From NCBI RefSeq assembly GCF_017744015.1, contig NZ_JAGHRA010000015.1, forward strand, positions 1 to 64,000: a stretch of 64,000 bases of DNA. Direction: 5' to 3'. The notes under the pieces were generated by a model. The model was not told the origin of the DNA and made no database searches. It saw nothing but the letters and a program-made list of their open reading frames with translations. This document shows positions 1-16,202 of the stretch, one piece after another. Source of the DNA: Paracoccus sp. R12_2 (lineage in GTDB: Bacteria; Pseudomonadota; Alphaproteobacteria; Rhodobacterales; Rhodobacteraceae). The stretch's first letter is position 1, and every line of letters begins with the position of its first letter. The position numbers and the translations under genes are program-made.

Positions 1-57
1 TCCATCTGGCGCAGCACACCCATGATCTGGGCTTCTGTGTATCGTGTCTTCTTCATC
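1..57 (-). CDS. IS3-family transposase OrfA, first 19 codons only
   Basis: The frame starts with ATG at 57 and reads MKKTRYTEAQIMGVLRQM before leaving the window. This is the typical opening of the helix-turn-helix OrfA of IS3-family elements (commonly MKK-R-T-E-QI---L). OrfA normally binds the element ends and is joined to the DDE-domain OrfB by programmed frameshifting. A GAGGAG ribosome-binding sequence lies about 6 bases upstream. Whether the element is intact cannot be seen here. Confidence 0.75.
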
Positions 58-123
58 GGAATCTCCTCAGTCATCCTGCCGAGAAAATTCTACTTCCGCA
101 TCCCGTTAAGATCGGGGGGGATT
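1..123 (-). mobile_element. IS3-family insertion sequence, left end (runs off the window)
   Basis: On the minus strand the motif TCGGTAATCC at about 114-123 is followed, some 60 bases on, by the start codon of a transposase OrfA. The same motif, spacing and leader recur on the plus strand at 16290-16352, which marks both as ends of related elements. The element lies mostly left of position 1. It starts inside the phage capsid gene and supplies that gene's last few codons and stop. The exact terminal base is uncertain by a few positions because the other end and any target duplication are outside the window. Confidence 0.7.
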
Positions 124-1959: not shown

Positions 1960-1964
1960 GAAGG

Positions 1965-3521
1965 TCAGTCCTGTTGGTCGGCCTGCGCCGTATCGGTTTC
2001 CGCGTCGGCGGCCGGGTCGTCGGTGTCGGGTTCTTCGGCGGCCGGATCGGTCGCCGCGTCACTGCTCTGCGCGCTGCCGGTCTTGGTGACGCGGCGTGGG
2101 TCGCTGTCGAGCACCAGCCCCAGCGCGTCGAGCTTGGCGTTTGTCGCGGCGATCTCCGCCAGCACCGCATCGGGGTTCCGGCCCTGTTTCGCGATCACCT
2201 CGGCCAGCGTCATGGTGCCGGAGCGGATCGACAGCAGGTTCGCCATCGCGTCCTTCTGCGGATCGACCGCCTCGAACTTGGGCGGCGACCATTCCACCGG
2301 CACGGTCGGCGACGGGATCTGGCCCGCCGCCCATGCAGCCTCGGTGAACCACCGCCAGACGGGCGCGCAGAACATCGGGATGAACAGCTGCCACTGCACG
2401 GCGTCGATCTGGCGGCGGAACTCGACGAGCCCTGCCCGGATCGAGGAATAGTTCACCTGGCTGAGATCGCCGGTCAGCAGCTCGTAGGGCACCCGGAACC
2501 CGGCCGAGATCGTGTGCAGGCTCGCACGCTTGTATTCGCCGTAGCCGCCTGTGGCGGCGGGCTGGTTGAACCGGATGTCCTTGCCGCCCCGCGCATAGGC
2601 AATCAGCCCCGGCTCGAACTGCTCGACCCGATTGCCGTCGGCATCGACCACGGAGGGCGCGATGCCCTGCTGCGCCTCGTCGTCACCAAAGACGATGGCG
2701 GTGACGCAGGCCTCGGTCTTCTTGCGGACCAGCTCGGCCACCTCGTAGTCGTCGAGATCGCGCAAGCTGCGGATCACCGGCGCGCCCCACGGGACGCCGC
2801 GCGCCTGCGTGCGCTGCTTCTCGTAGACATGGGCGATCTCGCTCGCCGGGACCGGGCGGCTCTGCAGACCGTTCTGAAAGGCGCCATAGGCGTCGCCGGG
2901 ATGTTCTGCATGGAGCCAGTAGGCCCGGCGCTTGCCGACCGGGTCGAACTCGATCCCTTGGACCAGCCGCCCCGCGCCGAGGACGCCGGATTTCGTGGCG
3001 TCGAGGAAGTCTGCCTCCAGCACCTGCAGTTGCAGCGGCACCGGCAGTCCGTCGCTCGCGCGCCGCAGTCGGCGGCGCACCAGGACCTCGCCCGCCTCGA
3101 CCATTTCGCGGCAGATCAGCGTCTGCAGCCCGTAGAAGTCGAGTTGGCCGTCGGCGTCGCACTCCGCCGTCCAGCGCTCGAAGAGCGCGTCGACCTTCCG
3201 GTCCAGCTTGTCGTCGCCGCTGGCCGCGCGCGGCATGATGCCCGCACCGATGATATTGTTCACCAGCACCGCCACGGCCTTGGCCGCATGCGGGTTGTTG
3301 CGCACCAGATCCCGCATCCGGTCGCGCAACAGGGCTCCGGCGACGCCGATCTCGGTGTCGGCCGAGGATCCCGGCGCACGCCAGCCCTCGGTGCGACGCC
3401 CGCGCGCGGCGCCGTCATAGCCCCGCGTCAGGGTCTCGAACGCCTGACGCGCCATCACGCGGCGGGCGGCCATGCGCGGCGCCACCGTGGCGATGGCGTG
3501 ATCGAACCAGGTCGCCGACAT
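1965..3521 (-). CDS. Phage portal protein, lambda family
   Basis: The 518-residue product matches lambda-type portal proteins, which form the dodecameric ring through which DNA enters the capsid. Family features visible are the basic N-terminus, the stretch VRNNPHAAKAVAVLVNNIIG near residue 73, the GLQTL/CREMVEAGEVLVR segment, and the conserved KRASLHTISAGFRVPYELLT region followed by SSIRAGLVEFRR. The C-terminal 60 residues are acidic and Asp/Ala-rich, probably disordered. The start ATG at 3521 overlaps the stop of the small connector gene (TGATG), so the genes look translationally coupled. A GTG one codon earlier is possible. Confidence 0.9.
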   Translation of the reverse strand: MSATWFDHAIATVAPRMAARRVMARQAFETLTRGYDGAARGRRTEGWRAPGSSADTEIGVAGALLRDRMRDLVRNNPHAAKAVAVLVNNIIGAGIMPRAASGDDKLDRKVDALFERWTAECDADGQLDFYGLQTLICREMVEAGEVLVRRRLRRASDGLPVPLQLQVLEADFLDATKSGVLGAGRLVQGIEFDPVGKRRAYWLHAEHPGDAYGAFQNGLQSRPVPASEIAHVYEKQRTQARGVPWGAPVIRSLRDLDDYEVAELVRKKTEACVTAIVFGDDEAQQGIAPSVVDADGNRVEQFEPGLIAYARGGKDIRFNQPAATGGYGEYKRASLHTISAGFRVPYELLTGDLSQVNYSSIRAGLVEFRRQIDAVQWQLFIPMFCAPVWRWFTEAAWAAGQIPSPTVPVEWSPPKFEAVDPQKDAMANLLSIRSGTMTLAEVIAKQGRNPDAVLAEIAATNAKLDALGLVLDSDPRRVTKTGSAQSSDAATDPAAEEPDTDDPAADAETDTAQADQQD

Positions 3522-3730
3522 CACCGGTCCCCGCGCGAGAAGCCCGCGAGCCCGGCCACCGGCAGCGGCCGGGTCGTTCCCGCGATGGCGCGCTCGATGG
3601 TGCGGATGCGGGCGAGCAGATCCTCGGCGGAGCCGTAGTCGACCGACTTGCCGTCATAGCTGACCCGGGTGGTTCCGCTGGCATAGGCCCGGCGCAGCGC
3701 CGAGAGCTCGCTCTCTGTCCAGTCGGTCAT
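3521..3730 (-). CDS. Phage head-tail joining protein, gpW-like
   Basis: This 69-residue protein begins MTDWTESELSALRRAYASG and ends in a flexible Gly/Arg tail. Size, the pattern of an N-terminal helix followed by a short beta hairpin (TTRVSYDGKSVDYGS) and a second helix (EDLLARIRTIERAIAG), and its place between terminase and portal fit the gpW family, which caps the portal after packaging. It starts 2 bases after the terminase stop and overlaps the portal start. Confidence 0.75.
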   Translation of the reverse strand: MTDWTESELSALRRAYASGTTRVSYDGKSVDYGSAEDLLARIRTIERAIAGTTRPLPVAGLAGFSRGDR

Positions 3731-3732
3731 GT

Positions 3733-5739
3733 TCAGAACCATCCTCCGCGCCGTCCGAGCCAGTCGGAGCGGCGCTTGCCCTGCGGGGCCTGTCCCGGCC
3801 GGTTGATCTGCCCGGCGGGATCGGTGTCGGTGGGGGCCGCCCCGAGCTGATCCTCGAGGTCGCGCCATTTCGCCTCAGACCAGCGATCCGCGCCCGCGAT
3901 CCAGGCGGCGGCGCGGGCATAGACCCGGCAATCCAGCGCCTCGTTCCGCTCGCGCAGCTTCTGCCATTCCAGCCGGGCGAAGCCGCGTTTCGTGCGGACC
4001 GTCACCAGCTGTTCGGCAACGAACTGCTTCAGCCATTCGTTCTCGACCCAATGCGGCAGATGCACCGAGCCGGGCGGAAACTCCGCCCCGTCGCCCATCT
4101 CCTCTTCGGTCGGCCGCGCCAGCCGCAGGAAGCGGTAGGTCTCGGCCTTGAAGGTCGACACCGCCACGGTCCAGAGCCGTGCGCCGCGCCGCAGGCGTTT
4201 GCCGCCCTCGGTCGCATCGACGAATGTCGGTCCCGACACCGGGCTGGAACGATTGAACCCCTCGACACCCTTGACCGGCGACACCTGTGCGAACCCCTGC
4301 GCCCGCGACCAGGAATAGACCGCCGGGGCCTCGTAACCGGTGTCGATGGCGAGCCGCGCGATCCTGAGATGCGCGCCGCGTTCATGTGGCCAGCTTCGAT
4401 CCAGCAGCGCGGTCAGCTCCGACCATGCGTCATGCCGATCCGGCCCGCCCTCGATGACGACATGATCGACGAGCCAGCTTTCGAGGCCACGGCCCCAGGC
4501 CCAGACATCGACCTCGATCCGGTCCTTCTGGACGTCGGCACCGGCGGTCAGGAACAGCCCGCCCGCGGGCACCGTGCCGGATGTCCAGCGCTCGCGGCGG
4601 TCGTAGAGCCGCTGCCAGTCCGGCGCTTCCCCGGTCTCGACCCATGTCTCGCCGAGGATCGTGTTCCGGAACGCCTTGATCGCCTCGTCCGACCCCTGTG
4701 CCGCGTTCCATGCCCGCACGATCCGCTCCCAGCTCAGCCAGCCGATCGGCGAGTAGAGCGCCGAGAGGTGATACCCGACCGTGGTCGGATCGGCGGCCGT
4801 GGCGGTTGCCCGCCATTCGCCGCCCTCCAGCATCGCCGTCTTGTGGTGTTCCGCGATTGCCGCGTCGCAGCCCTCGCAGTGGTATTCCGCCGTCTCCGGA
4901 CCGCCTTTTTGCCAGCGCAGCCGGTCGAACTTCAGCCACTGCATCGCGCCGCAATGCGGGCACGGCACGAAGTACCGCCGCTGGTCGCTCGCCTCAAACT
5001 CGCGCTCGATGCGCGACAGCCCCCGGATCGTCGGGGTCGAGACCAGCAGCACCTTGCGCCGATGGGCGAAGGTCAGCGACCGCGCCTCGGCAAGCGTGAC
5101 CGGATCCCCTTCCTCGTCGGCCGAGGCCGGATAGGCGTCGACCTCGTCGAGGAAGATGTACCGCGCCGGGGTCGATCGGAGCCCGATCGCCGAGTTGGCC
5201 CCCGTCATGATCAGGATGCCGCCCGCGAAATCCTTCGACAGCATCGTGTTGCCCGCATCGCGGGATCGCGCGGGCTTCACCCGCTCCCGCAGCTCGGGGC
5301 TTTCGTCGATCAGCGGGTCGATCCGCTGGCGCGAGTTGCGCTTGGCCAGCTCGACCGTGGGCTGGACCGCCAGCATCGGACCCGGCGCCTGGTGGATGGC
5401 GAACCCGATCCAGTTGTTGCCCGCCTCGGTCGCGCCGACCTGCGCGGCCTTCATGAACACGATCCGCTGTGTCGGATCGCCGGGCGACAGCCGGTCCATG
5501 ATCTCGCGCATGTACGGCGTGCGCACCGTGCGATACCGCCCGGGCTCGGCCGAGGCGCGGCCCGACAGCATCCGGTGCCGGTCCGCCCATTCCGAGACGG
5601 TCAGGTCCGGATCGGGCCGGAGCCCGCTGCCCCAGGCGCGCAGGATCTCGCCCGCGCCGTCGAAGTCCGTCAGGCCATCGCCGTTCTCACCGGAAGTCGG
5701 GCCGGACCTCGGCGAGTTCGTCGAGGTGGGCGCGTACAT
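3733..5739 (-). CDS. Phage terminase large subunit, GpA family
   Basis: The 668-residue protein is the DNA-packaging motor and nuclease of a tailed phage. Visible features are a variant Walker A (KAAQVGATE, residues 98-106), Walker B (YIFLDEVD, 194-201), a likely zinc-binding pair CPHC/CEGC (260-263 and 288-291), and an Asp-containing RNase-H-like segment (LTAGADVQKDRIEV) starting near residue 410. Length is normal for GpA-type enzymes. The only convincing start, ATG at 5739, lies 53 bases inside the upstream gene. The domain proper starts at about residue 24, so a non-standard later start cannot be excluded. Confidence 0.92.
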   Translation of the reverse strand: MYAPTSTNSPRSGPTSGENGDGLTDFDGAGEILRAWGSGLRPDPDLTVSEWADRHRMLSGRASAEPGRYRTVRTPYMREIMDRLSPGDPTQRIVFMKAAQVGATEAGNNWIGFAIHQAPGPMLAVQPTVELAKRNSRQRIDPLIDESPELRERVKPARSRDAGNTMLSKDFAGGILIMTGANSAIGLRSTPARYIFLDEVDAYPASADEEGDPVTLAEARSLTFAHRRKVLLVSTPTIRGLSRIEREFEASDQRRYFVPCPHCGAMQWLKFDRLRWQKGGPETAEYHCEGCDAAIAEHHKTAMLEGGEWRATATAADPTTVGYHLSALYSPIGWLSWERIVRAWNAAQGSDEAIKAFRNTILGETWVETGEAPDWQRLYDRRERWTSGTVPAGGLFLTAGADVQKDRIEVDVWAWGRGLESWLVDHVVIEGGPDRHDAWSELTALLDRSWPHERGAHLRIARLAIDTGYEAPAVYSWSRAQGFAQVSPVKGVEGFNRSSPVSGPTFVDATEGGKRLRRGARLWTVAVSTFKAETYRFLRLARPTEEEMGDGAEFPPGSVHLPHWVENEWLKQFVAEQLVTVRTKRGFARLEWQKLRERNEALDCRVYARAAAWIAGADRWSEAKWRDLEDQLGAAPTDTDPAGQINRPGQAPQGKRRSDWLGRRGGWF

Positions 5740-6283
5740 GTCTCTCCAGCACCTTCTGCATCGCGGCTGGCTCCACGGTGATCTGCTGGCCCGTCGCGTC
5801 GCTGCACGAGGCTGACAGTTCGGCCGCCATCAGCGCCGCCGCGCGTGCAGGCCAGTTCACCCACGTGTCCCGTTCCTCCCGCGCCAGGCGGAACACCAGC
5901 GCCAGCGCCCGGGCCCGCTCGATCAACTCCCCCTTCAGCTTCTGGAGCCGGATGCGCCGTTCCTGGGCCTTCAGCACCTCGTTCGCGGTCTTGGCCTGCA
6001 GGAACGTGGTGCCGCCGCCCACCGCCGGAACCGCCAGCCCCTGTTCGCGCAGCGTATCGCCGACAGCCGCCACCGCCGCCTCGGGGACAGGCTTCAGCTT
6101 CGGCGCAGGCGGCTTTCTCGTCTTCGACGGGTCCGTCGTCTCGGCACGCCTGGCGTCGCTGGCCGCCGCGTTGATGCTGCCGTCGGGATAGAGAACCAGC
6201 CGCTCGGCGATCTTCGCCTTCTGGATCGCGCCGCGCGACAGCCCGACATGGGCGGCGTACTGGCGCTCGCTCATGCCCTGCAT
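5687..6283 (-). CDS. Terminase small subunit-like DNA-binding protein
   Basis: The 198-residue protein starts with a helix-turn-helix-like segment (MSERQYAAHVGLSRGAIQ), followed by a Pro/Lys-rich linker and a long amphipathic helical part. This layout and the position directly upstream of the large terminase fit the small subunit that recognises phage DNA for packaging. Related genes are sometimes labelled 'elements of external origin'. ATG at 6283 has GGAG 6 bases upstream and is preferred over an internal ATG three codons later. The 3' end overlaps the large subunit by 53 bases. Confidence 0.7.
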   Translation of the reverse strand: MQGMSERQYAAHVGLSRGAIQKAKIAERLVLYPDGSINAAASDARRAETTDPSKTRKPPAPKLKPVPEAAVAAVGDTLREQGLAVPAVGGGTTFLQAKTANEVLKAQERRIRLQKLKGELIERARALALVFRLAREERDTWVNWPARAAALMAAELSASCSDATGQQITVEPAAMQKVLERHVRAHLDELAEVRPDFR

Positions 6284-6313
6284 CGACGGCTCCGATTATC
6301 ATTCAAAGTCAGG

Positions 6314-6334
6314 CGCTTATCGAGTTGATAAGCG
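6314..6334. promoter_or_regulatory. Inverted repeat between divergent phage genes
   Basis: CGCTTATC and GATAAGCG form a perfect 8-base inverted repeat around a 5-base spacer (GAGTT). It lies in the 111-base gap between the leftward terminase genes and the rightward small gene at 6395. The position suits an operator controlling one or both directions. No regulator gene is visible nearby. Confidence 0.35.
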
Positions 6335-6394
6335 TCGCCACCGGAGCGAACGTCAGTCCAACGAAGCGATGCAACTCACCAAGGAGCCACCACG

Positions 6395-6667
6395 ATGACA
6401 ACCCGACTGAACCCGATCACCACGCCGCGCCACGAACTCCGCGCCGAAAAGGCGCGCCGGAACAAGGAAGCGGCACTCGCCGCCTTCATCGGCAAGAAGG
6501 CCGAGATCGACGAGATGCTCGCCCGCCTGCAGGCGCTCAGCGACGACCATTTCAACTGCGCCCCCGACGAGGCGGGCTGGGCCATGGTCGGTACCCTCGA
6601 ACACTACGCCAGCCTCCTGAAGCGCATCACCGACAGCGCCTTCGGCGAGGGCGAACACGCCCGCTGA
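6395..6667 (+). CDS. Small phage-associated protein of unknown function
   Basis: The 90-residue product is not recognised as a named family. It is charged and mainly helical: a basic N-terminal half (RHELRAEKARRNKEAALAAF) is followed by an acidic segment ending in a short helix (WAMVGTLEHYASLLKRITDSAF). AAGGAG 8-9 bases upstream of the ATG supports translation. It is transcribed divergently from the terminase genes and in line with the DUF3489 gene. Its role is unknown; an accessory or regulatory function is only a guess from position. Confidence 0.6.
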   Translation: MTTRLNPITTPRHELRAEKARRNKEAALAAFIGKKAEIDEMLARLQALSDDHFNCAPDEAGWAMVGTLEHYASLLKRITDSAFGEGEHAR

Positions 6668-6762
6668 TCTCCGGCGCTGCCGGAACTCCCGCCGCGCGCC
6701 CTGCGCGGCTCGGGGTCGTAGAAGGCGCCGCATGACGCGGGCCCGAATACGGAGACGACCCC

Positions 6763-7323
6763 ATGACCAAGCTTTCCGATACCCAAGCCATCATCCTCAG
6801 CGCCGCCGCGCAGCGACCCGAGCACATCGCCCTGCCGCTGCCCGAGAGCCTGCGGGGTGGCGCCGCCGCCAAGGTGGTCGGCGCGATGCTCGCCAAGGGC
6901 TTCCTCGAGGAGGTCGACGCCGACCTGCGCAAGGGCGAGCCTATCTGGCGAGAGACCGGCGACGGCCACGGCGTCACGCTGGTCGCCACCGACGCAGGCC
7001 TCGCCGCCATCGGCATCGAGCCCGAGGACGCGGACACCGCGCCTGCGAGCGCGACCGAGGAGCCCGGGCCGGACACCCCCAACAAACCGGAGGCCGCGCC
7101 CAAGACGCGCACGCCACGCGAGGGCACCAAGCAGGCCAAGCTGATCGCCATGCTGCGCGCACCGGACGGCGCGACAATCGAGGAGATCATGGTTGCCCTC
7201 AACTGGGCGGCGCATACGATCAGGGGTGCCATGGCCGGGGCGCTGAAGAAGAAGCTCGGGCTCGAAGTGACCTCGGAAAAGGTCGAGGGGCGCGGTAGGA
7301 TCTATAGGCTGCCCGCTGACTGA
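6763..7323 (+). CDS. DUF3489-domain protein (winged-helix-like C-terminus)
   Basis: The 186-residue protein has two parts. The N-terminal 85 residues (TQAIILSAAAQRPEHIALPL onward) resemble a small helical DNA-binding fold. The C-terminal part, from about residue 125 (KQAKLIAMLRAPDGATIEEI), matches the DUF3489 family, which looks like a winged helix with an RGRIYRL strand at its end. A Pro/Ala/Thr/Glu-rich linker joins them. Such proteins are common on prophages and islands of alphaproteobacteria. DNA binding is inferred; the biological role is not known. Confidence 0.75.
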   Translation: MTKLSDTQAIILSAAAQRPEHIALPLPESLRGGAAAKVVGAMLAKGFLEEVDADLRKGEPIWRETGDGHGVTLVATDAGLAAIGIEPEDADTAPASATEEPGPDTPNKPEAAPKTRTPREGTKQAKLIAMLRAPDGATIEEIMVALNWAAHTIRGAMAGALKKKLGLEVTSEKVEGRGRIYRLPAD

Positions 7324-7474
7324 TCGCTCAGCTGGGCAACACCACATTGACGCCGTCCCACCCGGGGCGGCGGTCGATCATACCCAAAACGGGACGAAAT
7401 CGACATGAAGAGCCCATTGCAGACAGGCGATGTATTCACCAGTCTGGGAAGACTGATCCTTTGGGAGAGCCGAA

Positions 7475-8065
7475 ATGAGTAACGACCAATATTCTAGCTT
7501 CAAACAGCTTTTTGCACAAGAAAAACGCGGAATTGATTACCGCATAGTGGTCGAGGATAGAGGTTCGGACGTCTTGATCATGGCACCTCATGGAGGAAGA
7601 ATTGAGCCAGGGACATCCGAGATTGCATTTGACATCGCCGGAGGTGCCTTGTCACTTTACTGTTTCGAGGGTCTTCGGACAAGGCCGCACGGCGATTTGC
7701 ACATCACATCTCACAAGTATGACGAGTCGCAGGCTATTGATGCTGCAGAAAAATGCGAAGTTGTTGTTGCAATCCATGGCCGCAGCGACCGTGACGATCC
7801 CGAAACTGTTTGGTTGGGCGGACTGGACGTTCCGACTCTGGAAGAGATGGGAAAGCAACTTAAACTTGCCGGTTTTTCCGTTGAGATTCAGACAGGGGAT
7901 CTTGCCGGTGCTCATCCAAACAACATTTGTAACCGAGGGCGCAAAGGGAGTGGCGTTCAGCTTGAAGTTCCGAAGTCACTTCGGAATGAACTCAAGGCAA
8001 ATTTTGCGCGTCTTAGCGCGTTCTCCGAGGCAATCAGAAGGACGTTTTCGCCTGAACAAGACTGA
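7475..8065 (+). CDS. Poly-gamma-glutamate hydrolase-like protein (PghP family)
   Basis: The 196-residue protein resembles the zinc-dependent poly-gamma-glutamate hydrolases carried by phages that infect capsule-forming hosts. Visible family features are a probable metal-binding start (IMAPHGGRIEPGTSEIA, residues 31-47), LHITSHKYDE near 78, a central VVAIHGRSD and a C-terminal NICNRGRKGSGVQLEVP. There is no signal peptide, so release would need lysis or virion attachment. Base composition is clearly more AT-rich than the genes around it, suggesting a separate arrival as a 'moron' gene. A weak GAG-type ribosome-binding site precedes ATG 7475. Substrate in this host is unknown. Confidence 0.75.
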   Translation: MSNDQYSSFKQLFAQEKRGIDYRIVVEDRGSDVLIMAPHGGRIEPGTSEIAFDIAGGALSLYCFEGLRTRPHGDLHITSHKYDESQAIDAAEKCEVVVAIHGRSDRDDPETVWLGGLDVPTLEEMGKQLKLAGFSVEIQTGDLAGAHPNNICNRGRKGSGVQLEVPKSLRNELKANFARLSAFSEAIRRTFSPEQD

Positions 8066-8093
8066 CCGCTTCATCCGCACAGCTGCCGGAAGG

Positions 8094-8309
8094 CTAACGC
8101 ACCCGAATCGCCTCGAACAGCCTCCGCAGGACGTAGGACCGCACGATGCTGACTACGGTGAAGACCGCGCCCATCTTCAGGTTCTGCGCCAGCGTCGTCT
8201 GCAGCCCGAAGATCGGGAAGATCAGGATCTGCGTGACGACGGCGACGCCGTAGCCGACGATCACGTTGGCGACGGACTCCACGAGCGACATGAGGCGAGT
8301 CTGCTTCAT
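8094..8309 (-). CDS. Small membrane protein, DUF7220-like
   Basis: The 71-residue protein has two predicted membrane segments (VANVIVGYGVAVVTQILIFP, and a second around AVFTVVSIVRSYVL) separated by a short loop, with a basic C-terminus. It resembles the small phage-associated DUF7220 proteins. Its ATG overlaps the stop (ATGA) of the alternative frame inside the upstream C5-methyltransferase gene, which suggests translational coupling to that frame. Function unknown. Confidence 0.7.
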   Translation of the reverse strand: MKQTRLMSLVESVANVIVGYGVAVVTQILIFPIFGLQTTLAQNLKMGAVFTVVSIVRSYVLRRLFEAIRVR

Positions 8310-9496
8310 GTCGCCGCCTCATCCATCGGCCAGCAGTTCAGCCGCGAGAGTTCGCAGCGCATGCGCTGCAACCAGGGGGACCACGCCGTTACCACAGAGG
8401 CGAAGCCGGTCCACCCGGTGGGCCAGCCCATCAGCGCCTCGACGAACAGCGGGTTCAAGGTCCGGCGTGCCTCGGAGGAATCGCTCCCAGCCATCGGCTT
8501 CACCAGGACCTGGCGGCCAAGCAGGCCGTTCACCGGCGTGTTGGCAAGGCTCGTCGCGCCATCCTTGTGATCGCGGGCCGTCGGCGTCATCCACAATCCT
8601 GCCGCATGGGTCAGATCGGCCGACTTGCGCTTGCCCGCGCTCGGCTTGCAGCCGTCGTTCGCCATCGGCGTCGGCCAGTCCCGCGCCATCCGATCCAGAC
8701 CCTTTTCGGCCTTCCGCTCGCCACCCCGGCTGCGGAAACTGTCGATCTGCGGCGTCGGCCAGAGCGCTGCCGTCGTCGCGAGGTTCATGCCGTGCTGCCC
8801 CGCGGCCTGTGATGGCGTCGGTTTGGTCTGCCGGTTCTCGTTGGCGCTGGCGCGGGGCGTCGGCCAGAGCCGTAGCAGCTCCGTCCGGTTGCCGCCACTC
8901 GACCGGGTACCAGAGCAGGCGCGCGGGGTTGGCCAGCTCGTCTCCTTCTCGGATTGCGAGGATGAAGAGACGTTCGCGCTTGTGGGGCGCGCCGACTTCC
9001 GCCGCCGTGAAGAGGCCTGCCGCAAGGCGGTAGCCCATGCCGACCAGTCCTGCGGCGACTTCGGGGAAGCCGAGGCGGAGATGATGGGCGACATTCTCGA
9101 GGAAGACGAACTGCGGCTCGATCTCGCCAACGATCCGGGCGACATGCGGCCAGAGGTGCCGCGAATCGTCTGCACCCCGGCGCTTGCCCGCGACGGAGAA
9201 CGGCTGGCACGGATAGCCCGCAGTGACGATGTCCACCGCGCCGCGCCAAGGACGGCCGTCGAAGGTGGCAACGTCGTCCCAGAGAGGCGCGCGATCCAGG
9301 GACGCGTCTTCCATCCGCGCCACGAGAGTGGCTGCGGCGTAGGTTTCCCGTTCGACATGGCCCACAGCACGATATCCGGGGATGGCGATGGCGAGCCCGA
9401 GGTCGAGTCCGCCAGCGCCGGAGCATAGGGAAAGGCCGAAGAGGCATGCGTCTCTGGCCCCGGAAGCGCTTCCGGAGGAAGGTAAAGCCAGGTCAT
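8306..9496 (-). CDS. Overlapping open frame inside the C5-methyltransferase gene (WPTP-repeat protein)
   Basis: A second frame of the same strand is open from ATG 9496 to the TGA at 8306. Its C-terminal half carries repeated units of the form WPTPRA, LWPTPQ, DWPTPM and WMTPTARDHKDG, then LNPLFVEALMGWPTGWTGF. Sequences of this WPTP/NP-FVE-LMGWP type recur, from memory, in phages as proteins linked to C5 methyltransferases. The stop overlaps the next gene's start (ATGA), as coupled genes do. The N-terminal half is Ser/Arg-rich and may be only a shadow of the methyltransferase, so the true start could be internal. Real translation is likely but unproven. Confidence 0.5.
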   Translation of the reverse strand: MTWLYLPPEALPGPETHASSAFPYAPALADSTSGSPSPSPDIVLWAMSNGKPTPQPLSWRGWKTRPWIARLSGTTLPPSTAVLGAARWTSSLRAIRASRSPSRASAGVQTIRGTSGRMSPGSLARSSRSSSSSRMSPIISASASPKSPQDWSAWATALRQASSRRRKSARPTSANVSSSSQSEKETSWPTPRACSGTRSSGGNRTELLRLWPTPRASANENRQTKPTPSQAAGQHGMNLATTAALWPTPQIDSFRSRGGERKAEKGLDRMARDWPTPMANDGCKPSAGKRKSADLTHAAGLWMTPTARDHKDGATSLANTPVNGLLGRQVLVKPMAGSDSSEARRTLNPLFVEALMGWPTGWTGFASVVTAWSPWLQRMRCELSRLNCWPMDEAAT

Positions 9497-9500
9497 GCAT
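8319..9500 (-). CDS. Phage DNA (cytosine-5) methyltransferase
   Basis: The 393-residue product is a C5 cytosine methyltransferase, which methylates phage DNA, probably to escape host restriction. Visible motifs are motif I (SLCSGAGG, 24-31), motif IV with the catalytic Cys98 (GYPCQPFS), motif VI (ENV, 135-137), motif VIII-like (APHKRERLFIL) and the C-terminal motif X (RLCGNGVVP). Between about residues 215 and 340 the sequence is low-complexity and rich in LADA repeats; another frame of the same DNA carries WPTP repeats there (see 8306-9496). The start ATG at 9500 is chosen because the domain begins at once and the upstream gene ends at 9502. Confidence 0.88.
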   Translation of the reverse strand: MHDLALPSSGSASGARDACLFGLSLCSGAGGLDLGLAIAIPGYRAVGHVERETYAAATLVARMEDASLDRAPLWDDVATFDGRPWRGAVDIVTAGYPCQPFSVAGKRRGADDSRHLWPHVARIVGEIEPQFVFLENVAHHLRLGFPEVAAGLVGMGYRLAAGLFTAAEVGAPHKRERLFILAIREGDELANPARLLWYPVEWRQPDGAATALADAPRQRQREPADQTDAITGRGAARHEPRDDGSALADAADRQFPQPGWRAEGRKGSGSDGAGLADADGERRLQAERGQAQVGRSDPCGRIVDDADGPRSQGWRDEPCQHAGERPAWPPGPGEADGWERFLRGTPDLEPAVRRGADGLAHRVDRLRLCGNGVVPLVAAHALRTLAAELLADG

Positions 9501-9501
9501 G

Positions 9502-10878
9502 TCACGCGGCTGTCTTGCGCTTTCGCGCGGGTTCGGGTGCGGCGTCCAGGTCCAGCGTATCGGCCCGGGCCTCGGCATCGTCGCCCAGCCGCTCGGTCCT
9601 CACCTGCGCGAAGGTCCGACCGTCGCCGTCGAGGATCGCGTCGCGGCCGGTCTCGGCCTGCCAGCGCTCTACGGCGACATCGACATAGGCCGGGCTGATT
9701 TCCATCGCGAAGACGCGCCGGCCGTTGGCCTCGCCCGCCATGATCTGCGAGCCGGACCCCGAGAAGGGCTCGTAGCACAGGCCGCCGCGGGCGACGTGCT
9801 GGCGCATCGGGATGCCGAAGGCGTCGAGCGGTTTCGGCGTCGGGTGGTCGGGCCGGTCGTCCTTGGCGAAGCTCGGCAGCGCCCATGTCGATGGCAGCGT
9901 TTCCTCGGCCACCTTCGGCGGGCGGTTCGGACGGCGCCAGCCCATGAAACAGGGCTCGTGTTTCCAGAGGTAATGGGAGCGGGTCAGAACCCCGCGGTCC
10001 TTCACCCAGATGATCTGCTGATGAACGAAGGCCCCGGCTTTCTCCCAGCAGGCCTCGAGCATCGCCTGACGGCGCGAGGCATGCCAGCAGTACCAGGCGG
10101 CGTCCTCGGCGATGGCTTCCGTTACGGCAGCCGCGATGAAGCCGTCGTAAAGCTCGGCCCCCTGCGAACTGTCATCCCAGGTCGTGCCGTAGGACGCGGA
10201 CCAGTCCTTGTTGCGAGTCGGATGGTTCGAGCCGTCGTAGTCCACCAGATACGGCGGGTCGGTCGCGAACAGGATCGCCCGCTCGCCATTCATCAGGCGG
10301 CGCACATCGTCGTGGCTCGTGCTGTCGCCGCACAGGAGACGGTGGTCGCCGAGGATCCACAGATCGCCCGTGCGCGAGGCCGGGTTGCGCGGGGGTTCGG
10401 GGATGGTCACCGGCGGCACGGAGCCCCCGGCGCCACCTTCTTCACCGTCCCCCTCCGGCACGAAGGCCAGCAGCTTGTCCAACTCGCCGTCGGAAAACCC
10501 GACCAGCGACAGGTCGAAATCCTCGGCCAACAGTTCGTTCAGTTCCGCCGACAGCAGCGCCTCGTCCCAGGTGCCGAGTTCGGTCAGCTTGTTGTCCGCG
10601 ATCCGGTACGCCCGGCGCTGCGCCTCGGTCAGGTGGCCCAGCACGATCACCGGCGCTTCGGTCAGCCCGAGCTGCGTAGCGGCCAGCACGCGCCCGTGCC
10701 CCGCGATCAGCTCTCCGTCTTCAGCAACGAGGCAGGGCACGGTCCAGCCGAACTCGGCCATGCTGGCGGCGATCTTCGCGACCTGATCCGCGCCATGCGC
10801 CTTCGCGTTCTTCGCGTAGGGCTGCAGGCGCGCAAGCGGCCAGGTCTCGATCGCGTCCGGGGCGAAGCTCAGCGTCAT
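9502..10878 (-). CDS. ParB-like domain / N6-adenine DNA methyltransferase
   Basis: The 458-residue protein combines an N-terminal ParB/sulfiredoxin-like domain (residues 15-110, with GHGR at 60-63 and a conserved RIADNKL segment) with a DNA methylase of the N6/N4 class: DPPY at 207-210 is the catalytic motif IV and EPFSGSGSQIMAGE near 377 binds S-adenosylmethionine. This combination is typical of prophages and is thought to modify adenines near specific sites. The C-terminus is Asp/Ala-rich. ATG 10878 is preferred over a TTG three codons upstream. The gene is followed directly by the C5 methyltransferase. Confidence 0.88.
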   Translation of the reverse strand: MTLSFAPDAIETWPLARLQPYAKNAKAHGADQVAKIAASMAEFGWTVPCLVAEDGELIAGHGRVLAATQLGLTEAPVIVLGHLTEAQRRAYRIADNKLTELGTWDEALLSAELNELLAEDFDLSLVGFSDGELDKLLAFVPEGDGEEGGAGGSVPPVTIPEPPRNPASRTGDLWILGDHRLLCGDSTSHDDVRRLMNGERAILFATDPPYLVDYDGSNHPTRNKDWSASYGTTWDDSSQGAELYDGFIAAAVTEAIAEDAAWYCWHASRRQAMLEACWEKAGAFVHQQIIWVKDRGVLTRSHYLWKHEPCFMGWRRPNRPPKVAEETLPSTWALPSFAKDDRPDHPTPKPLDAFGIPMRQHVARGGLCYEPFSGSGSQIMAGEANGRRVFAMEISPAYVDVAVERWQAETGRDAILDGDGRTFAQVRTERLGDDAEARADTLDLDAAPEPARKRKTAA

Positions 10879-10965
10879 GATGGGCAAGGTTCCTCGGTCG
10901 GGTGGATGCCGGTGGCTTCCGGACTCCGGATACCGGACCGGACTCCACGCGGGGTCCAGCGTCGC

Positions 10966-11887
10966 GCCCTCCGATCTTAAGGAAGTTGCCGAACAACTCC
11001 TTCAGGAATGGGTTTGTCTTCGGCACCATGTCGGCCAGGTTGTCGGCAATGATGCCCGCGGGGCGCGAAATCCGCGCTGCCAGCATGCCATAGGCAATGG
11101 TCTGGGCGAACATGTCGGCGAAGCCATCATCGTCCAGGTCATGGATGAGGTTCTTGCGGAATGCTGCCTGCATCGTGGTCATGGGGCCAGTGTCGTCTTC
11201 GGCCTTCAGCAGCTGGTTGACCCGGGCGCGGATGTCCGAGGCAAGCTCGGCAAGACGCGTGGCGAGTTCCTTGGAGGTCTTGATCGTCTCGTTCAGGCCC
11301 AACTCGAACGCTGACGCCCAGTTTGCCCGCCATTGCTGCGTGTCCTCGTGATCATCAGGCCAGATCAGCCTGTTGCGCAGGAGCTTCGCCACATACTCGT
11401 TGTGAAGGCGTGTATCCTGGGCATTCCAGCCGAGCACCTTCATGACGGGGAGGTCGCCAGCCGTCTTGCCGTCAGAGAAGTGGATGAAAGCCAGCTCGCG
11501 CGCGCCCGACTTCCCGAAGCTGGCCGCGAATATCAGGTCGCTTTTATCCCAGGCGCGCCGATCAGCCGTTTGCGCCCCTGAGCGCTTCTTCACCACCAAC
11601 GCCTTCAAGATACGGCGCAGAACGGTCACGGGGATTGCCTTGTTCTCCATCGAAATGAAGAAAATACCCCAGGGTTGGTTGGTCGCCAGCGGGCGCAGCT
11701 GATGGATTTCGCGAATGCTGGCAGTCTCGTCTTTTTTCAGTCCAAGCTCGCTGGCTTCATATTCGAAGACGACATCATCAAAGCCGTAATCCTCGCCGAT
11801 CGGCCATTCCAGCTTGTCGCGCAGAAGCTCGACCAACTGCTCGAAGTTCGAAACCCTGTCGAGATCGGCGGCGCTAACATTTGCCAT
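10966..11887 (-). pseudogene. Truncated methyltransferase-type partner of the PLD-helicase (N-terminal 308 codons)
   Basis: The frame starts ATG 11887, 13 bases after the helicase stop, and encodes about 308 residues (VSNFEQLVELLRDKL to FLKELFGNFLKIGGR) resembling the N-terminal part of large class-I DNA methyltransferases of Eco57I/PglX type. No methylase motif (no NPPY) is present, because the expected catalytic part is missing. After residue 308 the sequence changes to Pro/Arg-rich translation that runs on into the ParB-methyltransferase gene, ending at 10721. The break at about 10966 therefore looks like a recombination joint with the prophage. The truncation follows from comparison by memory with full-length relatives and should be confirmed by alignment. 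Confidence 0.65.
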
Positions 11888-11900
11888 CAGAAAATCACCC

Positions 11901-14900
11901 TCAATTCAATTCCATCCACGCCTTCAGAATCGGCTTCACGCCGACAGGGGCCTGGACCTTGCGCAAGTATGTTTTCGCGATGTGCTTCTCGACTGACTTT
12001 CGCACCGCCGAAAGCTTTTCCTGATCGATCTGAACACGCCGGGGCGTCTTGGGATCGCAACGCACGAACTCGATGATCCGGGAGGCGTCCTCCAAGATCG
12101 CATCGCTTTCGAGATCCGCCAGATACCACTTCACGTCGCCGGCCTCCGCAGACCAGACGTCCTGACCGTCTCGCTCCGAGGCTTCGCGATCATGGGCCGG
12201 ACGCGAGTAGCAGAAGAAGACGCCACGGGCACCGCGCTTCGAGTGCTGTTTGCCGGAAAACACCGAGTCAGGCAGGCTGGACAGATGCGCCTCTAGTTCA
12301 GGATCGGTGGCAAGCAGATCCTGCCATTCCAAGTGCATCTGCTCGTCCGGGCTCGCGATGCCTTCGTACTGCTCGGCGAAGTTGCGGAGGTCCTCATAGT
12401 CATCGTCCTCGCGCAGCAGCTTCTTGCCCTCGATACCGAGCGTCTTCGAGATGCGCAGCGTCTTGTGCGACACACGGTTATAGAGCCGAAGGAGGTCATC
12501 GAGCTCGTCCGGCGGCAAGAAGTTCCAGTAGCCTACGGTCCCGCGCAGATCCTTCTGGTCCGGGTGATCCGTGAGTATCCTCTTCTCGATCTCTGGGTTC
12601 ATGCGGCGATCAACGCGGCCGATCCGCTGCATGAGGCGCACGGGGTTCCAGTGCAGGTCATAGTTGATCAGCCGAGTGGCGTCCTGAAGGTTCAAACCTT
12701 CCGACAGCACATCGGTCGATATCAGCACCCTGATCTCGCTCAAGCCTCGTTTCACGAGGTCAGGGGAACTCGACTCATTGTAGTAGGGTGCGAACCGCTG
12801 GATGACCCGCGACCGATCCCCCTTTGTGCCACTGTCGATCTGATCGACGCCCTCGATGCCGGCCTCCGCTAGCTGGGCCGCAACATAGCGTGCCGTCTCA
12901 CCAAATTCCGAGAAGATGATCACCTTATGATCCTTCAGGATCGGATCATTCTTCAGCAGCTTCTTAAGCTCGTTCAGCTTCTTGTCCTGAGAAGGCTTGA
13001 ACTTTTCAAGCTCGCTCAGGAAGTCCGCGAGCTGGTCTAAGTCCTGGATCGTGTCGTGGACGATCTTCTCGATATCGAATTCGTTGGGGTCAAGCTTCTC
13101 AACCGCGTCGCGCAACTCCTCGGGATAGAGGTCCTCTTCGCCCTCCGCTTCATCAAGGAAGTCAAGCTGCGGCTTGTATCCTATCAGCTTTCCATTGCGC
13201 CGCTTCCAGCGCTCTACTGCCTCCCGTTCATGGTCGGTTTCCGCATTCACGTCCAACCAGGCCAGTAGCTTGTAGAGCAGGCGCCAACATGACAGGCGAA
13301 AAGCTTCTGCTGAGCTTTCAAAGCGCTTCAGGAAATTTGTTCGGATCAGCGCCACCACCTGCTTCCGGCGGCCCTTCTCCATGGCGGGGACGATCTCGGG
13401 ATCATCGCCCTTATAGTAGGCATACGGGTTGTAGATGCCGAGGGTGAAGAGCGGAACACGTTTGTGGAAGGCATCAGCAACCATGTCGAGCAGCTTCCCA
13501 TAGGTCTGCTTGACCGAGTAGTGCGCCACCTTTGGCTTGCGCGGCTCAGGGAAGACAACTGCGCCTCCGCCTTCGCGCTGCATACTCGCCTTCACATAGC
13601 TTCGGCTCCGCTGAACGACGAGCGCATCAAATAGGGAGTCTGTCGCAAACAAGTCGCCAATGTCGGCGGCGTTGATCTCAGCAACCTCCTCATCCCCATT
13701 CGCTCGCAATTGACGCTCAATCGATCGTTCCAACTGTCGGATGTGTCCCGCGAGCGAATGGATGCCGAGCGGCGCATCGGCGAAGTGATCTGCACGGTGT
13801 CGTGAGAACAACTCGACCATGTGCTGAAAATCCAGCAGGCTGTTGTTGATCGGCGTGGCCGTGAGCATGTAAAGTTCCTTGCCCTCAGCGAGATCATACA
13901 GGTGCCAGTAGCGGGATTTGCGCTTGGCACCCTCTTCACCACGGGTGCCGGTGTTTCGAAAGTGATGCGCCTCATCGATGATGATGACATCAGCCTGGGC
14001 TTTGACTTGCTCCAGTTCTTCCTGCATCTTCTCGCGCATCAGATCCGTGTGACTGAAGATTTTCAGCCGACTGAACCCCTTGAACACTTCCGGCAGCCGG
14101 TTCCTGAGCTCCCGCTCCCAAACTGGCGACTTGGCCGACTTCGGCACGAACAGTGCGACGTTCTTGTTTTCATACTGGACAAACCGTTCGATCAGCATGA
14201 GCCCGATGAAGGTCTTGCCCAAACCAACACCGTCGCACAGGAAAGCACCGCCGTATTTCGCAGCCCTCTTAAGCAGCGCCCCATATCCATCCCGTTGGTA
14301 TTTTGCGAGGATCGGGTACAGCCTTGAGGAATTCTTCTCCCATTCGGTGGCGGTCTCCTCGTGTCCGGCGAAATAAAGCTGCATCGATCGCGCATAGACA
14401 TCGAACGGTGGGTAATCGCGGGTGTGGCGCTCAACCGTCTTGAGGACTTCGACCGAAACGTCCTCGGCTTCTTCCCAGCGTTCCTCATACCATTCCTGCA
14501 GGACGGCAACCGGCGTGCCCGTGATCTGGACGTTCAGTTCGATATTCTGGGTGAGCCCTGGGACAGTGAAGTTAGAGGAGCCAACAAGTGCGGATGATCC
14601 AACCACTTCGAGCCGGGCATGTGTGATGTAGGCTTTGGCATGGAACTTGTCCTTCCTATAAACCCGGCACTCGATCTTGCCCGACCGGATCGCCTCGACA
14701 ATTGCTGGAACACCTCTGAGGAAGTGGTTCTTTTCCTTTTCCTGCTCGATGCTTCTGTCTAGGCGGGAGGCAATTTCCTGAAGGCCGGCCTCGAATGCGC
14801 GCTTGGTGCGTTTTGAAACCTCATCCCCCATCAGGATGCGGATATGATCGACTTTTTGCCATTCGTCGCTGAGCGCGAGCAAGGCGCCGATCTCGAAATA

Positions 14901-15032
14901 TCCCGTTGCAATATCGATTGATTTAGAGAGCTGGCACCAGTCGTGCAGGTATCGGAGCGCCTTCCATTCATCGGCGCTATTGTCGACGATGAACAGCTCG
15001 CTGCCGGCCTTGTGGCTTTCTCTCTTCGGCAT
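11901..15032 (-). CDS. PLD-nuclease/SNF2-family helicase, candidate anti-phage or restriction protein
   Basis: The 1043-residue protein has an N-terminal phospholipase-D-like nuclease domain (residues about 15-200; FHAKAYI at 131-137 followed by GSSNFT) joined to a superfamily-2 helicase: Walker A GVGLGKT (268-274), DEAH (353-356), LTATPINN as motif III, and QRIGRVDRR as motif VI. A charged C-terminal region of about 200 residues follows. Such PLD-helicases occur beside large adenine methyltransferases in restriction-like systems; here the partner is truncated just downstream. Only one HxK half-motif is evident, so the nuclease might act as a dimer. AGGA upstream supports ATG 15032. Lower GC than the phage genes suggests separate origin. 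Confidence 0.8.
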   Translation of the reverse strand: MPKRESHKAGSELFIVDNSADEWKALRYLHDWCQLSKSIDIATGYFEIGALLALSDEWQKVDHIRILMGDEVSKRTKRAFEAGLQEIASRLDRSIEQEKEKNHFLRGVPAIVEAIRSGKIECRVYRKDKFHAKAYITHARLEVVGSSALVGSSNFTVPGLTQNIELNVQITGTPVAVLQEWYEERWEEAEDVSVEVLKTVERHTRDYPPFDVYARSMQLYFAGHEETATEWEKNSSRLYPILAKYQRDGYGALLKRAAKYGGAFLCDGVGLGKTFIGLMLIERFVQYENKNVALFVPKSAKSPVWERELRNRLPEVFKGFSRLKIFSHTDLMREKMQEELEQVKAQADVIIIDEAHHFRNTGTRGEEGAKRKSRYWHLYDLAEGKELYMLTATPINNSLLDFQHMVELFSRHRADHFADAPLGIHSLAGHIRQLERSIERQLRANGDEEVAEINAADIGDLFATDSLFDALVVQRSRSYVKASMQREGGGAVVFPEPRKPKVAHYSVKQTYGKLLDMVADAFHKRVPLFTLGIYNPYAYYKGDDPEIVPAMEKGRRKQVVALIRTNFLKRFESSAEAFRLSCWRLLYKLLAWLDVNAETDHEREAVERWKRRNGKLIGYKPQLDFLDEAEGEEDLYPEELRDAVEKLDPNEFDIEKIVHDTIQDLDQLADFLSELEKFKPSQDKKLNELKKLLKNDPILKDHKVIIFSEFGETARYVAAQLAEAGIEGVDQIDSGTKGDRSRVIQRFAPYYNESSSPDLVKRGLSEIRVLISTDVLSEGLNLQDATRLINYDLHWNPVRLMQRIGRVDRRMNPEIEKRILTDHPDQKDLRGTVGYWNFLPPDELDDLLRLYNRVSHKTLRISKTLGIEGKKLLREDDDYEDLRNFAEQYEGIASPDEQMHLEWQDLLATDPELEAHLSSLPDSVFSGKQHSKRGARGVFFCYSRPAHDREASERDGQDVWSAEAGDVKWYLADLESDAILEDASRIIEFVRCDPKTPRRVQIDQEKLSAVRKSVEKHIAKTYLRKVQAPVGVKPILKAWMELN

Positions 15033-15063
15033 CAAATAATCCTAATCTCTGAATAAAAACTGA

Positions 15064-15489
15064 TCACAACACCTCACCCCAGGGGTTGATCAGGTCGACG
15101 CCGCAGCCTTCGAAGTCAGGGGTGTTGCGGGTGGCGACGGTAGCGTCGCGTGTGCGCGCGATGGCAGCGATCTGGCAATGCGCCTGCGCGATCGGTAGGC
15201 CGGCAGCACGCCGGCTGGCGGCAATGGTGGCATAGGCCTCGGCGGCGGCACAGTCGAAGGCGAGTACCCGCCCTGCCAGGTCGTCGCGCAGGATGCGATC
15301 GATTGCGTCTGCCAGGCCGTCGCGGCGCTTGCCGTTATCCATGATCGCGACACCGTAGCGCAACTCGGCCTCGGAGATCGCGGTCAGGTAGATATCGAGC
15401 CCGTCCTGGGCGGCGAGCCACCCCTCGACCCGCGGTTCCGGGGTCGGGCGTAGAAGCTCGAAGACGACATTCGTATCGACGATGATCAT
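15064..15489 (-). CDS. PIN-domain toxin, VapC/FitB type, with altered active site
   Basis: The 141-residue protein is a PIN-domain ribonuclease toxin of the FitB/VapC family. VDTNV at residues 4-8 and SEAELRYG near 39 carry the first conserved acidic residues, and TRNTPDFEG near 120 the last. The third conserved acidic position, usually Asp in a segment like ADCQIAAIA, is His here (AHCQIAAIA, codon CAT at about 15178-15180). A GAT-to-CAT change would give this. Metal binding may be weakened, so the toxin may be inactive. The gene starts 2 bases after the antitoxin stop. Confidence 0.85.
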   Translation of the reverse strand: MIIVDTNVVFELLRPTPEPRVEGWLAAQDGLDIYLTAISEAELRYGVAIMDNGKRRDGLADAIDRILRDDLAGRVLAFDCAAAEAYATIAASRRAAGLPIAQAHCQIAAIARTRDATVATRNTPDFEGCGVDLINPWGEVL

Positions 15490-15491
15490 GT

Positions 15492-15740
15492 TTACGCCTG
15501 ATCGAACGCGGGTGGCTGACGCATGGGCTCATGCGGGGGAAGGTCCAGCTCCACCCCGCCCAGGGGCGCGATCCGGGCCCGGATCGCGGCCGCGAGGTTG
15601 TGGGCGGGCCTTTCCTGGCCAACAACCTGGCGCAGGATTTCGCGGGCCTCTTCCTCCATCGACCGACCGTGCTCGGCAGCGCGAATGCGCAAGCGGCGCT
15701 TCACATCGTCCTCTAGGTTGCGAATTGTAATGCTTGCCAT
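15492..15740 (-). CDS. FitA-type ribbon-helix-helix antitoxin
   Basis: The 82-residue protein begins MASITIRNLEDDVKRRLRIR, the ribbon-helix-helix DNA-binding opening of FitA/VapB antitoxins, followed by SMEEEAREILRQVV. The C-terminal 35 residues, Pro-rich, would wrap around the toxin. ATG 15740 has GGGGA 7-8 bases upstream. It forms an operon with the PIN-domain toxin and would neutralise it and repress the shared promoter. A perfect 15-base palindrome 36 bases upstream is the likely operator. Confidence 0.85.
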   Translation of the reverse strand: MASITIRNLEDDVKRRLRIRAAEHGRSMEEEAREILRQVVGQERPAHNLAAAIRARIAPLGGVELDLPPHEPMRQPPAFDQA

Positions 15741-15790: not shown

Positions 15791-16112
15791 AAGCCATAGC
15801 GCGGCACTAGTTTTCGTTCAGTGAAAGCAGAACGAGCCTCCGATAATGAGTTCGATTTCTGTTCCCTCTCGAAGCGTGTCCCTGAAATCGAAGTGTTCGG
15901 CGAGGCTTGCCAAAAAACACTTCATTTTCATAGCCTTAAAAGAAATTCACCGGAACGGCGCAGTCATCAGGTCCGGAGAATATCGGCCCTTAGAGACCAC
16001 TCGCGGGCCGCTTGGCGCCGGGGCCAGTGTTCAGCCCCACCCGCATAACCCCCGAAAACAACGGAAAAATCCGGCCGGAGCCGTATCGTGAGAACGCTTT
16101 CGCGGGGGCAAG
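15791..16112. other. Intergenic stretch with no gene recognised
   Basis: Between the toxin-antitoxin operator and the 3' end of tRNA-Ser I see no convincing gene: short open frames have no family resemblance or good ribosome-binding sites. Being next to the tRNA 3' end, it could hold remains of an attachment site, but no repeat of the tRNA end was found. Confidence 0.4.
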
Positions 16113-16202
16113 TGGCGGAGACGAAGGGATTCGAACCCTCGAGGCCCTTTCGGGCCTGCACCCTTAGCAGGGGTGTGCCTTCGACCACTCGGCCACGTCT
16201 CC
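16113..16202 (-). tRNA. tRNA-Ser (anticodon GCT)
   Basis: The minus strand folds into a 90-base class-II tRNA. The acceptor stem is GGAGACG/CGTCTCC with discriminator G and an encoded CCA at 16113-16115. The anticodon loop CTGCTAA gives anticodon GCT for AGC/AGT serine codons. A long variable arm follows (AGGCCCGAAAGGGCCT contains its hairpin), then a T-arm with GGTTCGAATCC. Its 3' end faces the phage/defence island, as is usual where a tRNA gene was used for integration. Confidence 0.97.

Follow-up and report, generated by a model that had tools for sequence, protein, structure and literature searches.

A probable remnant of a split, Type ISP-like restriction-modification system with a PLD nuclease, broken at a prophage joint in Paracoccus sp. 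R12_2

Described relatives and the R12_2 locus

Type ISP restriction-modification (RM) enzymes such as LlaGI and LlaBIII carry an Mrr-like N-terminal nuclease, a translocase, a methyltransferase (MTase) and a target recognition domain (TRD) in one chain, as set out in the available text of one report (PMC3874165). BREX-related Type-2 systems centred on DUF499 are built differently and, in the available portions of two papers, place a fusion of an HKD/phospholipase D (PLD) nuclease and an SNF2 helicase in an operon with an N6-MTase (PMC12839542, PMC7641849). SauUSI, a Type IV enzyme, is described in the accessible part of its source as a single chain of PLD nuclease, SF2 ATPase and SRA-type reader of methylated DNA (PMC7913695), and CglI and NgoAVII, going by partial accounts, are RM systems that also pair a PLD nuclease with an SF2 ATPase. 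Here we describe a locus near the start of a contig of Paracoccus sp. R12_2 (NZ_JAGHRA010000015.1, positions 1 to 64,000; "the window" is this whole stretch of 64,000 nucleotides). On its minus strand, a gene for a PLD nuclease-SNF2-type helicase (11901-15035) is followed by the 5′ part of an MTase-type partner gene (10962-11887), which stops at a joint to prophage sequence (10961/10962). We consider it likely that this is what remains of an ATP-dependent RM system of two subunits, Type ISP-like but split and equipped with a PLD nuclease, whose partner gene was cut by a deletion or rearrangement. Of this reading, the gene pairing, the domain content, the conserved catalytic motifs and the sharp break are seen in the sequences.

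The PLD system has in common with LlaGI and LlaBIII an SF2 motor, an MTase and a Type_ISP_C recognition domain, and it may have a coupler right before the MTase. It differs from them in being encoded by two genes, in its PLD nuclease and in an additional N-terminal domain (N-domain) on the MTase protein. The motor itself is of the expected kind, with SNF2 and Helicase_C matches, Walker A, a DEAH core and motif VI, and intact partners have both the MTase and, in 33 of 41, the Type_ISP_C domain, which the window copy lacks owing to the break. The single chain is not found: the window and the other loci examined have two open reading frames (ORFs), and two fused proteins look frameshifted. Nor does Mrr appear among the helicase's Pfam matches, its nuclease domain being PLDc_2 with an invariant HxK motif. 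The COG1743-DUF499-SNF2 operons of the BREX-related Type-2 group resemble the pair in joining an HKD-SNF2 helicase with an N6-MTase. They include a DUF499 ATPase, whereas among 20 pair-bearing genomes other than R12_2 a DUF499 (PF04465) match, counted anywhere in the genome, came from only one, and the partner MTase is mostly Type ISP-like. SauUSI likewise has PLD and SF2 domains in one chain, but an SRA reader there contrasts with an MTase partner here. Because two defining Type ISP features, the single chain and the Mrr nuclease, and the DUF499 feature are missing, we file the system under neither Type ISP nor BREX-related Type-2. A previous interpretation of the window, the sequence-only reading, had proposed a plausible restriction or anti-phage architecture resembling DISARM and BREX only in parts; the partner proves to follow the MTase-TRD layout of LlaGI and LlaBIII and not a DISARM or BREX one.

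The helicase and its conserved methyltransferase partner

The helicase ORF comprises 1044 codons if it starts at a TTG (15035) and 1043 if it starts at the ATG at 15032. Pfam places PLDc_2 at residues 37-187, SNF2/ResIII matches, and Helicase_C at 686-810, and the HxK, GSSN, Walker A, DEAH and motif VI elements are all present in the window protein. When the window protein is compared with those of 77 loci, 78 sequences in all, the catalytic core residues are invariant, with the single exception of the A of DEAH, which is kept in 77. The predicted structure retrieves SNF2 remodellers, and the PLD region is modelled poorly in parts. As for named families, the best PADLOC model is C3a139 (HKD+Snf2; 194.9 bits), which also came first for all four other helicases scanned; it is a single-protein model, and PADLOC names the partner apart, as REase_MTase_IIG. 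The best NCBIfam match is NF042964, "phospholipase D-like domain-containing anti-phage protein", at 156.8 bits, so far under the curated cut-off of 1100 bits that we do not regard the helicase as a member. The DISARM helicase models NF038317 (140.6 bits, cut-off 610) and NF038318 (95.5 bits, cut-off 950) also score far short of their thresholds, and the protein does not qualify as DrmD-type. A helicase encoded on a contig of a Rhodobacteraceae metagenome-assembled genome (L016) is 96% identical to that of the window. In a wider search with the helicase, 8000 candidates were scored, of which 6747 proteins, more distant ones included, reached E <= 1e-20.

The pairing with an MTase was assessed in homologous loci found with the helicase alone as query. 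From 548 such loci we retained the best 80 and excluded two in which the helicase runs off the contig (L057 and L070); 14 of the remaining 78 had less than 2.5 kb of downstream sequence. Each of the 64 loci that reach this length has an MTase homologue downstream on the strand of the helicase, clearly so in 63; the unclear case, L060, is a frameshifted helicase locus with a weak MTase match. From the helicase stop to the start of the MTase ORF the distance is at most 100 nt in 45 loci and 100-2000 nt in 19. The suggestion that helicase and partner form a two-gene unit, made from the window alone, is thus confirmed as a conserved arrangement. Within the genus, Paracoccus lutimaris CECT 8525 (L025) has the pair intact.

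Intact partners continue past the point at which the window copy is broken, with matches to N6_Mtase, Eco57I and Type_ISP_C, and some end in a C-terminal Schlafen AlbA_2 domain. The tally over 41 partners is 40 for Eco57I, 40 for N6_Mtase, 33 for Type_ISP_C, 16 for MmeI_Mtase, 4 for SLFN_AlbA_2, 3 for DUF7008 and 3 for TaqI_C. Their catalytic motif is NPPY, that of an adenine methyltransferase, and a search of solved structures returned 7lo5 (DrdV), LlaGI and LlaBIII first. The break falls directly ahead of all these domains, and the earlier view of the partner as a truncated protein of the adenine-methyltransferase type is borne out by these homologues. Two outcomes had been named in advance as telling against that view, homologues that end at the same point and never have a methylase domain, and a lack of conserved pairing with the helicase. 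Pairing is conserved, and no clean homologue ending at the break without a methylase domain turned up in the loci and genomes searched, the protein-database search covering only proteins of at least about 725 aa.

The N-domain, which precedes the break, is the part of the partner richest in near-invariant columns. This holds over 41 aligned partners, eight of which have a divergent MTase chassis; they were drawn from 44 downstream ORFs that are long and closed, with L026, L060 and L094 left out of the alignment. Its lead in conservation persists in the eight divergent partners and, by mean identity, fails in the other 32; the eight were set by identity and were not matched one by one to the eight that lack Type_ISP_C. 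The alignment of the fragment took in 33 of 43 partners, with divergent ones among those omitted, and that of the helicase 30 of 78 loci. In the genomes searched, occurrence of the N-domain tracked that of the helicase. From the near-invariant columns and their conservation on divergent chassis, we infer that the N-domain may dock the motor protein.

The two halves already have database names: "helicase-related protein" for the first, and "type ISP restriction/modification enzyme" (NCBI, on several partners) or "REase_MTase_IIG" (PADLOC) for the second. With the NCBI name in place, the MTase half is not new. In the literature searched, to which REBASE and most subscription journals did not belong, we found no description of the MTase pairing with the PLD motor or of the common N-domain.

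Several loci depart from the simple pair. Accessory genes stand between helicase and MTase in nine of them (L035, L038, L051, L061, L071, L073, L080, L084 and L090), and 9 of 10 intervening ORFs scanned had a Pfam match: Fic (two, one with a Schlafen domain), AAA ATPases (two), Gp49, DUF3800 (two), DUF6998 and a weak AbiEii. The gap between the genes looks like a cargo site. In L063 (13038-20083), a stretch of small ORFs, about 3.3 kb long, separates the ORF of the MTase part (650 aa) from that of the Type_ISP_C part (598 aa). In P0241 (1520 aa), an internal join links the initial two thirds of the helicase to the second half of the partner, as if this were a further product of deletion in the system, and P0342 is a fusion of more distant relatives. 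The fused proteins P0184 and P0245, single chains of PLD, helicase, MTase and TRD, were not used as proof of joint action, since in their protein letters the helicase C-terminus is replaced by sequence that reads as frameshifted.

The truncated partner gene and its joint with a prophage

The partner ORF in the window (10721-11887, minus strand, 388 aa) starts at 11887, 13 bases past the helicase stop codon. Residues 1-309 align at 91% identity to the start of the 1318-aa partner that occupies the corresponding place in L016, and the tail after residue 309 has no significant alignment to that protein. What is kept of the gene is thus 308-309 codons (10962-11887), which on alignment to L016 and other partners and in a structure model of moderate confidence (mean predicted local distance difference test score, pLDDT, 74.3) comprise the N-domain, residues 1 to about 195, and a helical domain, about 203-308, that may be coupler-like. 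The MTase and TRD are lost, and the ORF then reads about 80 foreign, out-of-frame codons (10721-10961, minus strand) before its stop. No Pfam domain was matched in the 388-aa ORF at E <= 0.01, and for the N-domain, modelled as part of a longer chain, a structure search of the PDB gave no convincing match. The window copy of the system is probably dead. Compared with L016 (window 10962-15035), synonymous divergence (dS) is far lower in the helicase (0.39) than in the partner fragment (1.08), a gap that would fit separate recent histories of the two genes.

On the other side of the joint lies a prophage remnant (127-10961, minus strand) with genes for a ParB-like/N6_N4 DNA methyltransferase (9502-10887, ATG at 10878; a phage gene outside the system), the terminase large subunit, the portal and head/protease functions; replication and tail parts are absent on the contig. 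The remnant matches a replicon of Shinella sp. PSBB067 (NZ_CP069303) at about 87-90% identity in three pieces that cover 59% of a 16,500-base query, and this match, together with the recognised terminase, portal and head genes, bears out the prophage side proposed earlier, just as the ORFs, Pfam matches and end of the L016 alignment at 10961/10962 uphold the picture of a 1043-residue PLD/SNF2 helicase followed by a partner cut at a prophage joint. Megablast of window positions 1-15100 against 50,697 phage records gave no match. The contig opens with the end of an IS3-family insertion sequence (1-126), into which the head/protease ORF extends and which matches elements of several plasmids. A plus-strand ORF for a poly-gamma-glutamate hydrolase (7475-8065) lies within 7311-8100, a stretch unmatched in the Shinella prophage.

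The idea that a phage module had been inserted in place of part of the MTase found no support. Phage relatives for comparison were Shinella and, from the best 80 viral loci, all but L144. Among these 80 relatives, the match ends exactly at 10961 in 50, at 10964 in 6, earlier in 24 and further on in none. The relatives themselves carry on: in Shinella, genes for a RuvC-like protein, a primase/helicase, an exonuclease and a helicase follow past the position of 10961, and sequence beyond the joint is held in common with the phage locus L177 over at least 100 nt in 76 of 78 relatives and at least 500 nt in 38 of 78. The joint is therefore not a prophage end. Insertion at an attachment site was also rejected, the tRNA-Ser 3′ region (16081-16160) having no copy of 13 nt or more elsewhere in the window. 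With a phage side that is internal to a normally continuing prophage and is itself cut by the IS3 end, insertion is a poorer fit than a joint made by deletion or rearrangement, or than an assembly error. One deletion or rearrangement in this lineage is the likeliest origin.

An assembly error, with a false join between two sequences from one cell or sample and a true partner gene that may be intact but unassembled, strikes us as unlikely, though it is the most probable of the alternatives. The assembly is a draft of 51 contigs (4.07 Mb), the window begins with the first base of its contig (C6) at an IS3 end, and the R12_2 genome holds other related prophages. In a survey of 125 genomes of the genus with two places scored in each, both sides were joined in R12_2 only; the phage side begins at the joint position (query 1436-1442) in 35 of 124 other genomes (a hand count, excluding a 46-nt piece in G839), and in one (G785) the partner side stops exactly there. 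Against a misjoin, the missing partner half had no match in the R12_2 genome (E <= 0.01), whereas the same search detected it in all four control genomes, whose pair is intact. Of the phage replication region, R12_2 likewise has no more than the part that ends at the joint and one weak fragment, on contig C10. The source sequences overlap at the joint by about 1 nt, with no homology or repeat, and the genome is reported as 99.99% complete and 0.07% contaminated. Further prophage sequence related to that of the window occurs on contigs C17 (L262, L263) and C10 (L264), and C17 too begins with an IS3 end. C17 was excluded as the continuation of the remnant by a terminase of its own, at about 75% identity, and is therefore taken as a second, related prophage.

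Upstream of the helicase, and outside the pair, lie a PIN-domain (VapC-like) toxin ORF (15064-15489, minus strand), a short minus-strand ORF (15481-15740) that we take to resemble a ribbon-helix-helix antitoxin of the FitA/VapB type, and a tRNA-Ser gene (GCT; 16113-16202, minus strand) about 1.1 kb from the helicase, a possible island insertion site. Two of nine loci scanned (L016 and L018) have a tRNA-Ser gene (GGA) at most about 0.5 kb upstream of their helicase, and in L017 the gene immediately upstream encodes a tyrosine integrase. Given the upstream tRNA-Ser and this integrase, the system may travel on islands.

Proposed mechanism, remaining alternatives and meaning

In the mechanism that we propose by analogy, the second protein (N-domain, coupler, N6-adenine MTase and TRD) would bind a specific site and methylate self DNA. 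On unmodified DNA, it would pass over to the first protein through the N-domain and coupler; the SNF2 motor would then translocate and the PLD domain would cut away from the site. Docking, translocation, cleavage and a role in defence are what we infer from the comparison. In R12_2, the MTase and TRD would have been lost when a deletion or rearrangement joined the gene to an internal prophage point. The motor-nuclease left behind would be unable to recognise a target, and the cell could for this reason tolerate an intact nuclease ORF after the loss of the methylase. A second case that fits such tolerance is L022 (12145-18089), where an IS66-type transposase gene splits the partner between its MTase and Type_ISP_C parts and the helicase is still open.

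The unbroken helicase ORF could also be taken to mean that the helicase works alone, as a modification-dependent, Type IV-like nuclease for which the methylase break is irrelevant. SauUSI, as far as its source is available (PMC7913695), is built of PLD and SF2 domains in the same way, but no SRA or other reader domain was found among the Pfam matches of the helicase (E <= 0.01) and the MTase pairing is too consistent across loci, which makes this very improbable. We give about as little credit to a remaining function of the truncated fragment, such as that of a decoy in docking or of a helicase regulator. The N-domain and putative coupler are kept, and nonsynonymous divergence from L016 (dN 0.059) is low relative to dS, but a pairwise dN/dS mainly reflects the time before the break, the ORF finishes in foreign codons, and no second copy ending at the same point was seen in the loci examined. 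Least credible of all is a member of the DUF499-centred BREX-related Type-2 group minus its ATPase gene, since the equal HKD-SNF2 effector layout in the available account of those systems (PMC12839542) and a PADLOC HmaA match of 93.9 bits are set against the rarity of DUF499, the Type ISP-like partners and the far higher score of C3a139.

Returning to a split RM system, we can tentatively extend the reading to the family, at somewhat less than even confidence. The pair might represent a modular restriction class in which one PLD-SNF2 motor-nuclease is common to several MTase-specificity chassis (Type ISP-like, PglX-like and Type IIG-like) through the N-terminal docking domain, with a nuclease that would be inert without its partner, so that the host would survive the exchange or loss of specificity modules.

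The PLD-SNF2 helicase/MTase pair is widespread, and the interest of the family exceeds that of the broken copy in the window. Separate database names for the two halves hide both the nuclease and the pairing. If our reading is true, standalone "Type IIG" or "Type ISP" labels on these partners are incomplete, and a PLD nuclease is able to replace Mrr in Type ISP-like enzymes. The N-domain would then make it possible to test clearly by what means different specificity subunits connect to a single motor, and the broken copy in R12_2 would be a natural instance of a restriction nuclease that has outlived its methylase.

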